DNA of 64,000 nucleotides. Source: Bacteroides nordii WAL 11050 = JCM 12987 (GTDB taxonomy: Bacteria > Bacteroidota > Bacteroidia > Bacteroidales > Bacteroidaceae). This document shows positions 36,376 to 40,088 of the stretch, piece after piece (the first letter of the stretch is position 1; each line of letters begins with the position of its first letter). The position numbers were made by a program, and so were the translations under genes. The stretch is taken from contig BAJA01000001.1 of the NCBI GenBank assembly GCA_000613465.1, positions 124,001 through 188,000 of the forward strand. Reading direction: 5' to 3'. The notes under the pieces are model-generated. The model worked only from the letters and a program-made list of their open reading frames with translations, was not told the origin of the DNA and ran no database searches.

Positions 36376-36464
36376 TTGAAAATTGAAAGTTGAAAGTTGA
36401 AAATTAGCTGCGCTGTCACGCTGCATAGTAATTTTCAACTTTCAACTTTCAATTTTCAACTAAA
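36371..36464. repeat. intergenic palindrome D, perfect 35-bp arms of TTGAAAG units, covering both stop codons
   Basis: Arms 36371-36405 and 36430-36464 are perfect complements over 35 bases built from TTGAAAA/TTGAAAG units. The 24-bp centre reads AGCTGCGCTGTCACGCTGCA followed by TAGT. The TAG stops of gcvP (36373-36375) and of the convergent nitroreductase (36460-36462) are mirror positions in the arms. Confidence 0.97.
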
Positions 36465-37026
36465 CAACGGTTATCGTTCCCACCTTTACTCTCTTTTCTT
36501 TCATTGGAATAGAAGGATCAGGATATCCTAAGGCTACACAACCGTATACTTTGTGATTTTCGGGGACACCGAGAGAAGTGATAAATTCACGTACTTCGGG
36601 GGCATCGCATGTTGTCCCCAGCTGGTTGATCCAGCAAGAACCAATACCCAGAGAACGGGCAGCAAGAAACATATTTTCAATAGCACAGGCACAATCCATA
36701 CCTGCCCACCATTGTGTCGGTTCATTAGAAACAATTACAAGCGTTGGTGCATGATAATAACAGCAATACGTCTGGTTACATCCGCGCTCCTGCAAATGTT
36801 TATCCTCACTTTTGGTAAATGCACCTTTGATACGGGCATTTAATTCTTCGAGTTTCTCTGTATTTTGTATAGCTGTGAAATGCCATGTTTCAAGATGCAT
36901 ACCACTCGGAGCATATGTGGCAGCTTCAAGAATAGTCAGTAAATCTTCTTCAGCTACCTGTTGAGTAGTATAAGCACGTACGCTACGACGTGCTTTGATA
37001 TTTTCTAATACTTCATTTGTTTTCAT
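36460..37026 (-). CDS. nitroreductase family protein
   Basis: The 188-residue FMN-dependent nitroreductase-fold protein starts NIKARRSVRAYTTQQVAEEDL and has ATYAPSGMHLETWHF, the FMN-contact segment CAIENMFLAARSLGIGSCWI, and VYGCVALGYPDP. Two notable Cys pairs are present (CCYY, MDCACA). Such enzymes reduce nitro compounds or quinones with NAD(P)H; the natural substrate is unknown. The stop codon lies in palindrome D, convergent with gcvP. Confidence 0.92.
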   Translation of the reverse strand: MKTNEVLENIKARRSVRAYTTQQVAEEDLLTILEAATYAPSGMHLETWHFTAIQNTEKLEELNARIKGAFTKSEDKHLQERGCNQTYCCYYHAPTLVIVSNEPTQWWAGMDCACAIENMFLAARSLGIGSCWINQLGTTCDAPEVREFITSLGVPENHKVYGCVALGYPDPSIPMKEKRVKVGTITVV

Positions 37027-37101: not shown

Positions 37102-38190
37102 TCACCTTTTAACCAGCCCAATCTTCACATTCAACTTAAAGTAATATACCCCATTCTCCCGCTCCAGGAAGCCGTACTTATCTTTATCCACAGATCCTTT
37201 TTCTAAACGGGTATTCAGATAGAGAAAATCTTCAAATGTCTTTTTCTCCGCTTTATGATAACAAAGCACCTCTCCGTTTCCATCTATCAGCAAAATTCCT
37301 TCCACAGCAGAATCCGTCCCGTTATAGATCTTTGCCGGACGCATCCCCAATGCCAGAGCAAGCAGGAACTGCTTCATTTTAAATTCATAAAAACCATGTT
37401 TATTGATCAGTTCATCCTTGATTTTCAACGGATTGATTCGTTTTATCTCCTCCGTCAATTCACTGATACGTGTGATACCATCCAAATGCATAATACGTAC
37501 CATCTCTGCCAGAACACGCGGAAAGTGCAAATCTATCATCAACAGGTTGCAACGAAACACACGGTCTGCCACATCAGAATACTTTAATACACCGCCCAGG
37601 CGTTCTATCATCATCATACGCTCTGCCACTTCTGTAGGCGACTCTTCCAATGCATTTATTTTATTCACAGTAGGTACGGCAAACTTAACACCTGTCTGCT
37701 CCAATTTCAGATTGGCAGTTCGTCCGCCATCAAGCAAAGGATTCATGGCACTAAGACGTGAACGAACATTGAATCCTGTCAATGGAGCCTCAGGATGCCA
37801 GAAGGCAACAGAAAAGTCCGTACGATCATCTGTTTTTGCTTCAAGATCAAAGATACCTGCTTCATCCAGGAACTCTTCTACCCCATCAGGCGAAGTCACA
37901 TCATTTTCGGATGACGACTTGACTGCATCGAGAATTAATCCGGCCACTGTGGCAAAATCTTCCCGTGGTATTCGCTTATCTACTGTTTCGTTTACAATAT
38001 GAATTTCCTCTTTCTCAATATAATAGCGACGCGTACCATCATGCTCTTCGCGCTGTACCATTGCTACAGGCCAGCACTGTGTATCGTCTTTTTTTGCTTG
38101 CGGCGTACCCAACGAAACCTTTCCGTCTGCCAGCAAACGGAAAAAAGCATACAGTTCACTCCATTCTCTTTTTGTTGCTTCAAATGCCAT
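37102..38190 (-). CDS. HpaII-family restriction endonuclease homologue (no methyltransferase nearby)
   Basis: The 362-residue protein is close in size to R.HpaII (about 358). From memory of the family it shares EWSELYAFFRLLADGKVSLG at the N-terminus, TGFNVRSRLSAMNPLLDGG in the centre, GFYEFKMKQFLLALALGMRP, and the C-terminal GILLIDGNGEVLCYHKAEKK with FLYLNTRLEKGS. HpaII cuts CCGG. No DNA methyltransferase lies within this window, which is unusual for a type II enzyme. It starts 16 bp after a C39-like peptidase gene and is probably co-transcribed with it. Active-site residues cannot be assigned with certainty by eye. Confidence 0.75.
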   Translation of the reverse strand: MAFEATKREWSELYAFFRLLADGKVSLGTPQAKKDDTQCWPVAMVQREEHDGTRRYYIEKEEIHIVNETVDKRIPREDFATVAGLILDAVKSSSENDVTSPDGVEEFLDEAGIFDLEAKTDDRTDFSVAFWHPEAPLTGFNVRSRLSAMNPLLDGGRTANLKLEQTGVKFAVPTVNKINALEESPTEVAERMMMIERLGGVLKYSDVADRVFRCNLLMIDLHFPRVLAEMVRIMHLDGITRISELTEEIKRINPLKIKDELINKHGFYEFKMKQFLLALALGMRPAKIYNGTDSAVEGILLIDGNGEVLCYHKAEKKTFEDFLYLNTRLEKGSVDKDKYGFLERENGVYYFKLNVKIGLVKR

Positions 38191-38206
38191 ATTTAATATA
38201 TTTGTT

Positions 38207-38974
38207 TTACAGATTAATCATTTCGGGCAGTTCCTGCCAAGGGATCAACGGACGTTGTATCTCTATCTCTTTCTCCACAGGTGGTAATTTCCCAGCACGT
38301 GCTATAGCCAGTGGAATACGTGGAGTTATCACAATATACCTCCCTGTCCAGCAGCCATCAAACCAGGCCGGATTACCCCGCTCCCGCTTTATTGGAAAAC
38401 ATTGATTTTCACCCTTACTCCGCATCATAGCCGAACGCCCGGGATCGTTGATCCATACATGAGTATCATTTATACCGCGAAGCACCATCCAATGACGGTG
38501 ACTACCCGGTTGCATCAACCCATGAGACGAACCGCGATGCCTCACATTTATCAGTACGGGAATACCCTGATCAATATATGCCTTCAGCGCCCGGTAGTCT
38601 TTATTCATAAAATGCTCAGCACTCACCATATGTTCATAATACCGTGTCAACGAATCTATTTCAAAAGAATAATAGCCACCCTGTCCTATGGATGTACGCC
38701 GCTTGAAAGGAGCACGTTTTTTCAAAAAATAATTTTTCTGATACTCTACAAGCTTTGCTTCGGCTTCTGCTGCCGAACGGCAACTATCTACGGTCATCCC
38801 TTTATAATAATCAAATACCATCAATGAGGATGCCAGCGAACAATGCGCATAAGGACATCCGCTGATCTTCTGCGAATACCAGGGTAAAGGAATATCGTTG
38901 GGAGCCACTTCCTGAGCCTGAACAGAAGGCAAATGGCTTCCAATCAATAACAAACCGAGATACAGAGCTTTCAT
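38207..38974 (-). CDS. C39-family (papain-like) exported peptidase
   Basis: The 255-residue protein has a signal peptide (MKALYLGLLLIGSHLPSVQAQ) and a C39-like cysteine-peptidase domain: SGCPYAHCSLASSLMVFDYY (candidate catalytic Cys), GIPVLINVRHRGSS, and SHRHWMVLRGINDTHVWIND (His and Asn/Asp). Members process or degrade peptides outside the cytoplasm; the substrate is unknown. ATG 38974 starts the signal peptide, while an earlier ATG (38992) would coincide with the likely transcription start. It is directly upstream of the HpaII-like gene. Confidence 0.78.
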   Translation of the reverse strand: MKALYLGLLLIGSHLPSVQAQEVAPNDIPLPWYSQKISGCPYAHCSLASSLMVFDYYKGMTVDSCRSAAEAEAKLVEYQKNYFLKKRAPFKRRTSIGQGGYYSFEIDSLTRYYEHMVSAEHFMNKDYRALKAYIDQGIPVLINVRHRGSSHGLMQPGSHRHWMVLRGINDTHVWINDPGRSAMMRSKGENQCFPIKRERGNPAWFDGCWTGRYIVITPRIPLAIARAGKLPPVEKEIEIQRPLIPWQELPEMINL

Positions 38975-39098: not shown

Positions 39099-39305
39099 AT
39101 GGATAAAAATGAAAATCTGATTAGTATCACGGAAGTCCCTGCCGGGCCCTACATCATCAAAGGTGAATTTAAGATGATTAACAAAGAAGGGAAAGAGAGT
39201 ATTTTGCAAGGAACAAACGCTTTGTGTCGTTGCGGCCACTCTAAAAACAAACCATTTTGCGACGGAACACATCGTAAAATAAATTTTGAAAAGGACAACG
39301 AATAA
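39099..39305 (+). CDS. CDGSH iron-sulfur domain protein
   Basis: A 68-residue protein with one CDGSH-type motif: CRCGHSKNKPFCDGTH, giving the 3-Cys-1-His ligand set of a [2Fe-2S] cluster. The N-terminal part (ISITEVPAGPYIIKGEFKM) forms the beta-rich base seen in single-motif bacterial CDGSH proteins. It probably acts in electron or cluster transfer in the cytoplasm. It is a single gene, divergent from the C39 peptidase and convergent with the IMPACT gene. Confidence 0.93.
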   Translation: MDKNENLISITEVPAGPYIIKGEFKMINKEGKESILQGTNALCRCGHSKNKPFCDGTHRKINFEKDNE

Positions 39306-39402: not shown

Positions 39403-40005
39403 TTATTCTTCCTCAAGGATACGTGCAGTCTCTACTTTTTCCAAGCGTGCCCTCAGACGAGGCATCATAGAACGACGAATACGAAGCGTCATACTACAAT
39501 CCATGTCATAGGACTGTTGTAAAATTTCAGGTTCTTCTTCTTTCACAATACGCATCACATCATTCATAAAAGGATATTCAAAAAGCAAAGTCACCTCGTC
39601 ATCTACCGTTTTTTCTACAATGGTAGCCGTGGCAATGGCTTCGGCGGCAGCAGCTTTATAAGCTACGATCAATCCGCTTGTTCCCAGCTTGATTCCACCA
39701 AAATAACGAACTACAATAATAAGTATATCAGTCAGTTCATTAGAATTGATCTGTCCTAATATAGGTTTTCCGGCTGTACCGGAAGGCTCACCGTTATCAT
39801 TCGCACGAAAATCTGTTCGTTCATGTCCCAACATATAGGCATAGCATACATGACGTGCATCGTAATATTTCTTCTGATACGTTTCGAGATGTGCTTTTAT
39901 TTCTTCGTGTGTACGCACAGGCAATGCAATAGCAATAAACTTGCTACGCTTTTCGGTATAAATACCTTCGGAGGGTTCAGTAATGGTTTTGTATGTATCT
40001 TCCAT
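39403..40005 (-). CDS. YigZ/IMPACT family protein
   Basis: The 200-residue protein has the UPF0029 IMPACT N-terminal domain: RSKFIAIALPVRTHEEIKAH, KKYYDARHVCYAYMLG, NDNGEPSGTAGKPILGQI and VRYFGGIKLGTSGLIVAYK. The C-terminal DUF1949 part follows (LFEYPFMNDVMRIV). Related to a eukaryotic translation-control protein; the bacterial role is not settled. ATG 40005 was chosen because the longer frame only translates the arm of palindrome E. Confidence 0.92.
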   Translation of the reverse strand: MEDTYKTITEPSEGIYTEKRSKFIAIALPVRTHEEIKAHLETYQKKYYDARHVCYAYMLGHERTDFRANDNGEPSGTAGKPILGQINSNELTDILIIVVRYFGGIKLGTSGLIVAYKAAAAEAIATATIVEKTVDDEVTLLFEYPFMNDVMRIVKEEEPEILQQSYDMDCSMTLRIRRSMMPRLRARLEKVETARILEEE

Positions 40006-40018
40006 GCTTTTAGAATTA

Positions 40019-40088
40019 AAAATGGAAAGTTGAAAATTAAAAATTACTATGCAGCGTATTATACAGTTAATTTTCAACTTTCCATTTT
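40019..40088. repeat. intergenic palindrome E (TTGAAA-type arms, loop motif present)
   Basis: Perfect 22-bp arms 40019-40040 and 40067-40088 around 26 bp. The centre on the plus strand contains ACTATGCAGCGT, the exact reverse complement of part of the palindrome D centre. The arm follows the TAG stop of the DUF1015 gene, in the same TAG-TTGAAAA arrangement as palindrome D. Confidence 0.93.

Follow-up and report, generated by a model that had tools for sequence, protein, structure and literature searches.

What becomes of a restriction enzyme gene that is kept without its methyltransferase? This question is raised by a 64-kb stretch of Bacteroides nordii DNA (64,000 nucleotides, hereafter the window), in which an open reading frame with an ATG start, at positions 37102-38190 of the minus strand, encodes a 362-residue HpaII-like protein. 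The original prediction held that such a gene, if stably maintained without a modification partner, would encode an inactive enzyme, depend on a distant methyltransferase, or have taken on a new role.

Gene and chromosomal neighborhood

The features referred to below, by position in the window, are as follows.

36460..37026, minus strand: nitroreductase, often the downstream neighbor in the genus
37102..38190, minus strand: solitary HpaII-like protein gene; 362 residues, RE_HpaII member with a putatively altered active site
37117..37125, minus strand: codons of K356-I-G358, which stands where the R-M clade has Q-x-R
37762..37764, minus strand: codon of R143, at the site of the S-x-K lysine, which is K in 90/90 methyltransferase-linked relatives among the matches listed
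37816..37818, minus strand: codon of D125, acidic residue of a predicted PD-(D/E)xK-like site, kept in 95/96 solitary proteins
38155..38166, minus strand: codons of E9-W-S-E12, acidic residues on a predicted helix; E9 is kept in 96/96 and E12 in 94/96 solitary proteins
38207..38974, minus strand: C39-like peptidase with a signal-peptide-like start, probably an incidental neighbor
39403..40077, minus strand: YigZ family gene (reading frame listed from TTG), the commoner upstream neighbor in the genus

The protein had been described as resembling the HpaII family over its whole length, and a Pfam profile search bears this out: PF09561 (RE_HpaII) matches it along the whole profile (1-359 of 359), with 469 bits (cut-off 25) and E 1.4e-140. 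A whole-genome profile search of the host (5.59 Mb, 93% complete) gave this one RE_HpaII match. No family for the protein was found in an NCBIfam search, and no relative in a sequence search for solved structures. Its described position, 16 bp after an exported C39-like peptidase and among housekeeping genes, also proved correct. The gene upstream ends at 38207, leaving a gap of 16 bp, and matches Peptidase_C39_2 at 41 bits (cut-off 24). Its N-terminus looks like a signal peptide when judged by eye, and the window neighbors of the HpaII-like gene are housekeeping genes. A Bacteroides finegoldii record is annotated in the same order as the window: serC, NAD(P)-dependent oxidoreductase, DUF1015, YigZ, C39 peptidase, HpaII family, nitroreductase, and gcvP. 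Between the C39 and YigZ genes, the window also holds a small open reading frame on the plus strand (39099-39305), which presumably encodes a CDGSH-type iron-sulfur protein.

A comparison of synteny across Bacteroides, suggested with the original prediction, gave a divided answer: the context of yigZ, nitroreductase, and gcvP recurs in the genus, but adjacency to a C39 gene is rare. Neighbors were analyzed for the 66 of 73 solitary loci that were placed, with 30 later-fetched loci standing outside this analysis. Nitroreductase (a cluster that probably contains paralogs) was in the neighborhood of 25 loci, YigZ of 22, and gcvP of 20, and a C39 gene adjoined the solitary gene in six, all within the genus. 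Among the 29 placed loci of the genus, the gene directly upstream was yigZ in 15 and a C39 gene in six. The two loci that form the deepest solitary pair (L093 and L131) likewise have yigZ directly upstream, and L131 also has gcvP downstream; the presence of yigZ in this pair and in much of the genus points to one old chromosomal site. Distances among solitary proteins track those of YigZ (r 0.92, 22 loci), gcvP (0.86, 20 loci), nitroreductase (0.84, 25 loci), and DUF1015 (0.74, 19 loci), with lower values for serA (0.41) and serC (0.36), the serA and nitroreductase clusters in both the neighbor and the distance analyses probably containing paralogs. Other genera have other neighbors, so no functional partner stands out. 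The suggested coupling to the C39 peptidase as a functional unit was therefore not supported, given adjacency in only 6 of the 66 placed loci, and the peptidase is probably an incidental neighbor.

Search for a methyltransferase partner

As had been noted, the window contains no methyltransferase partner. The host genome encodes a single C5 methyltransferase, on a different contig from the HpaII-like gene; this is a phage-type protein of PHROG 116 with 25% identity to an HpaII-type methyltransferase over 150 residues. Its gene lies in a prophage-like stretch (contig C102, locus L002) behind that of a transcriptional regulator (PHROG 10300). Two N6/N4-type methyltransferase genes of the host also exceed the cut-off; CCGG contains no adenine. 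A genome-wide search for a CCGG methyltransferase, proposed earlier as a check, was made with an HpaII-type methyltransferase profile built from 16 linked methyltransferases; at E 1e-60 it had no match in the host genome, of which the missing part (completeness is 93%) could contain another methyltransferase.

The same profile matched 9 of 76 genomes of the genus at E 1e-60, and only those of G570 and G553 exceeded 700 bits. Both of these methyltransferases adjoin linked HpaII-type enzymes of their own (L144 and L147). Some C5 methyltransferase match was obtained in 49 of the 76 genomes and none in the remaining 27. An intact HpaII-like gene is nevertheless encoded in 24 of these 27 genomes without a detectable C5 methyltransferase, and it has R143 in all 24.

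A CCGG enzyme that was both active and unprotected would be expected to kill its host cell. Avoidance of CCGG as a means of self-protection was considered and rejected, the site being as frequent as expected both in the window (246 observed, 232 expected) and in nine loci drawn from genomes that lack a C5 methyltransferase (529 observed, 544 expected). Among other tetranucleotides of the window, CTAG is nearly missing, with 4 occurrences where 94 would be expected, and the counts of GATC (133, with 235 expected) and GGCC (60, with 118 expected) are approximately halved.

Residues, phylogeny, and selection

To compare residues, we compiled 190 non-redundant proteins of at least 330 residues from 244 loci among the matches listed. 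Proteins were termed linked when a C5 methyltransferase lay within 2 kb, and unlinked when none did and at least 4 kb of upstream flank was available. All 90 linked proteins among the matches listed keep G8, E9, W10, E12, D125, S141, and K143 (window numbering). In contrast, 69 of the 72 unlinked proteins among the matches listed lack K143, and have R (52), Y (10), Q (4), or C, H, or F (one each) in its place. The three unlinked proteins with K143 (L140, L141, and L229) are N-terminally shortened and fall inside the R-M clade; no methyltransferase was found in the fetched stretches, the lost N-terminal residues include E9, and these proteins look as if they were enzymes decaying after the loss of a partner. 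Among the matches listed, another 28 rows had too short a flank, 27 of them without K and one (L216) with it. A scan of contigs, from which the best 80 among the matches listed were kept, used patterns that contained the lysine motif, and its rows therefore lean towards K; when they are left out, K is present in 20 of 20 linked proteins and absent from 69 of 71 unlinked ones.

The sets used for the motif, selection, and pI counts (96 solitary and 94 R-M proteins) were named by residue 143, and they agree with the tree. Position 143 of the solitary proteins is R in 78, Y in 11, Q in 4, and C, H, or F in one each, and position 141 varies (N, C, R, S, V, T, and others). E9, E12, and D125 are kept in nearly all of them, at the counts given above. 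The window protein follows this pattern, with E9, E12, and D125 present and R143 replacing the lysine. Retention of these acidic residues, combined with drift at 141 and 143, counts equally against a normal enzyme and against one that is simply dead. A second difference is C-terminal: the R-M clade has Q-x-R (Q in 94/94 and R in 93/94 among the matches listed), and the solitary clade has K-x-G at the same site (K in 96/96, G in 92/96). Two plasmid enzymes, from Acinetobacter and Lactococcus, retrieved with a solitary protein as query, have GFSIKS, QIRF, and a methyltransferase alongside. Conservation, predicted strands, and the general PD-(D/E)xK pattern suggest that S-x-K is part of the cutting site, and the residues of Q-x-R may read bases.

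Structure prediction had been recommended earlier as a way to locate the catalytic residues. The models of the window protein and of a Zobellia enzyme from the R-M clade (L042) have mean pLDDT values of 94.7 and 93.7, respectively. D125 borders strand 126-130 of the window model, R143 lies in strand 138-144, and E9 and E12 lie in helix 7-22, an arrangement that would be expected of a PD-(D/E)xK site. Foldseek, on the other hand, returned no match at E 0.001 for either model. VIA-align ranked MspI and HinP1I at the top for both the solitary model (Z 6.3 and 5.1) and the R-M model (Z 6.5 and 6.4), a suggestive ranking, yet these Z values (5.1-6.5) are middling and within the range of common arrangements, and the matches have an rmsd of 4.5-6.1 Å over 174-183 residues. 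The target sites of MspI and HinP1I are CCGG and GCGC, respectively.

Phylogenetic reconstruction separated the two groups. A quick IQ-TREE analysis (LG+G4; 64 of 190 rows; midpoint root) gave SH-aLRT support of 100 for the split between solitary and R-M proteins, and its warnings of long branches and odd composition concerned R-M rows only. The leaf order of a FastTree of all 190 rows also grouped the non-K proteins together. With the midpoint root, the deepest solitary branch comprised L093 and L131, with support of 84 for the other solitary rows.

RE_HpaII matches were detected in 73 of 76 genomes of the GTDB genus (the host included; the others at least 95% complete), and all 73 carry a gene without the lysine (44 classified earlier and 29 fetched later), with R in 71 and Y in 2. 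The 29 later-fetched genes, from 30 loci, have R (27) or Y (2) and in no case lysine, and no C5 methyltransferase was found within these 30 loci. One intact frame is present in 71 of the 76 genomes. The frame is broken in G053, the gene is split over two contig ends in G578, probably by assembly, and no RE_HpaII match was found in G024, G569, or G632; these three genomes and the broken frame suggest that the gene is not needed everywhere. A draw from the genus with incomplete genomes included gave matches in 44 of 60. At the level of the family, matches occur in 10 of 16 genera and in 135 of 298 genomes; three of these matching genomes (G568, G622, and G668) had partial matches and were left out of the loci. 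In a phylum-wide draw, 11 of 395 genomes match, and the five full-length enzymes from outside the family all adjoin a C5 methyltransferase.

A mobile origin was considered and rejected. Searches of phage and plasmid collections (tblastn) returned six and seven records, respectively. Nearest among them were some short faecal contigs that carry no annotation and two large records from Bacteroides/Phocaeicola. The one inspected, from B. finegoldii (NZ_OY725969.1; L248), is a 125-kb sequence named as a plasmid that carries serC, gcvP, and rsmG, and it looks like a piece of chromosome because serC and gcvP are present.

The solitary clade is under purifying selection. Median NG86 dN/dS over 31 non-independent solitary pairs is 0.056, compared with 0.085 over 112 non-independent R-M pairs among the matches listed, suggesting selection at least as strong as that on the R-M relatives. 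Most neighbors evolve more slowly than the solitary gene (median dN/dS of 0.015-0.078 for 12 neighbors, versus 0.058 for the solitary gene in this comparison); values for gcvP, yigZ, and the C39 gene are 0.020, 0.042, and 0.111, respectively. Columns that are at least 95% conserved number 106 in the solitary clade and 75 in the R-M clade among the matches listed, a difference partly due to breadth, because one bacterial family is compared with a set spanning phyla. In addition, 53 columns are fixed in the solitary clade to a residue that differs from the most frequent one of the R-M clade among the matches listed. The low dN/dS and the conserved columns indicate that the solitary protein is used. 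Solitary proteins are more acidic than R-M proteins (median pI of 5.66 versus 6.40), which does not favor strong DNA binding.

Candidate roles of the solitary protein

From these sequences we strongly infer that the solitary protein is not a working CCGG restriction enzyme, because it has no lysine, altered C-terminal residues, and no methyltransferase, in DNA with some 246 CCGG sites per 64 kb. With respect to the three options first put forward, inactivity as a CCGG nuclease together with a new role is favored, and a distant methyltransferase is strongly opposed. The explanation that we prefer, with moderate confidence, is that an HpaII-type enzyme was domesticated once within Bacteroidaceae and is now most likely a putative non-cleaving nucleic-acid-binding protein. 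An ancestor within the family would have lost the methyltransferase and the S-x-K lysine of an HpaII-type (CCGG) enzyme once; a single ancestral loss is supported by the tree, the motif, and the neighborhood. Mainly vertical descent since then, with purifying selection keeping the gene near-core on the chromosomes of the genus, is likewise supported. The fold retained from the restriction enzyme would serve to bind nucleic acid but not to cleave it, in regulation or in DNA maintenance. We are evenly divided over a statement framed in terms of exaptation, namely that the enzyme was exapted once within Bacteroidaceae to become a near-core Bacteroides protein, now serving as a regulator that binds specific DNA sequences or as a nuclease that acts on a new target without the lysine; we know of no restriction enzyme in such a role.

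Non-cleaving nucleic-acid binding is the simplest proposal, with an altered nuclease as its main rival. Against binding alone, E9, E12, and D125 appear to be kept more than a wholly unused active site would require, and K can be replaced, as a passage of PMC4081073 describes active restriction enzymes with E, Q, or N instead. The protein could still cleave, with changed chemistry and on a different target, such as modified DNA (Type IV-like), nicked or structured DNA, or RNA, for which a protective methyltransferase would not be needed. We regard this as unlikely. The fixation of K-x-G in place of Q-x-R would also fit it, as would the 53 newly fixed columns, which suggest a new ligand, but positions 143 (R, Y, Q, C, H, or F) and 141 vary, unlike those of a catalytic site in use, and one member is reported as inactive in the main text of PMC3488263.

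The other readings are far less probable than an altered nuclease. It is improbable that the protein acts as an inactive competitor, sitting on CCGG sites and so shielding the cell from incoming HpaII-type R-M systems. Five genomes do hold both a linked HpaII-type enzyme and a solitary gene (G561, G515, and G570, and also G553 and G470), but R-M carriers of this kind are few within the genus (2 of 76), and the solitary clade, having exchanged its Q-x-R, may no longer bind CCGG. The loci concerned are L124, L144/L145, L117/L118, L146/L147, and L114, and the linked enzyme is shortened in L147 and L114 (G553 and G470). A working R-M system with its methyltransferase elsewhere in the genome is very unlikely. 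Candidates for that methyltransferase exist in the C5 enzymes of 49 of the 76 genomes, in the two N6/N4-type enzymes of the host, and in the probable cognates proposed for 5 of 11 Bacteroides enzymes in the main text of PMC3488263. Yet the lysine is missing, the sole C5 enzyme of the host is phage-type, the intact gene occurs in 24 of the 27 genomes where no C5 methyltransferase was detected, and the 2 of 76 genomes with an HpaII-type methyltransferase that scores above 700 bits have it beside another, linked enzyme. We give equally little credence to a two-gene system with the exported C39 peptidase: the 16 bp gap in the window and the pairing in six loci and in B. finegoldii would suit it, but yigZ or other genes take the place of the peptidase in most placed loci, and the peptidase looks exported, whereas a protein with the fold of a DNA enzyme would be expected to stay in the cytoplasm. 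Such a partnership is not general. A pseudogene or decaying remnant, to which the decay of the active site, the broken frame in G053, and the three genomes without a match might point, is scarcely credible and is contradicted by the intact frames in 71 of 76 genomes and by purifying selection (median dN/dS of 0.056).

Turning to what was already known, a literature search on the HpaII active site, BT_1149, and Bacteroides HpaII function found nothing relevant; BT_1149, which shares the gene order, we take to be BthVORF1149P. The main text of Ershova et al. (2012; PMC3488263) describes 11 orthologous HpaII-like enzymes in Bacteroides, so the existence of solitary genes of this kind was reported at that time, with a changed function suggested. 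The same text cites REBASE for the absence of activity in BthVORF1149P, and counts some of the solitary group as separated R-M systems. Its groups 37, 6, and 7 (PMC3488263) most likely form one orthologous group with the present solitary proteins, and the five cognate methyltransferases that it proposes appear unlikely because the motif has been lost. What appears to be new here is that the S-x-K lysine is kept by methyltransferase-linked relatives and absent from the solitary clade, in which Q-x-R has become K-x-G; the words ‘catalytic’, ‘lysine’, and ‘selection’ are absent from the main text of the survey (PMC3488263).

In common with R.HpaII-type Type II enzymes (PF09561, with a linked C5 methyltransferase), the solitary protein has the full-length family match, the predicted order of secondary structure, and E9, E12, and D125. 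It differs from them in lacking the serine and lysine of S-x-K and in having K-x-G for Q-x-R, and its gene lacks a methyltransferase and is near-core in the genus. Given the motif loss, the public annotation ‘HpaII family restriction endonuclease’ (e.g., in B. finegoldii) is probably wrong as to function, as is the label of separated R-M systems for some of the group (PMC3488263). The maintenance of the gene in nearly all species of the genus examined, without a partner, suggests that it has probably been re-used for another job. A restriction fold that lacks the lysine of the predicted cutting site, yet is near-core in a major genus of the gut, would represent a defense enzyme turned household protein and offers a clean, testable case. 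Among the R-M relatives, a Tenacibaculum gallaicum contig (L169) carries two HpaII-type R-M pairs approximately 4.4 kb apart.
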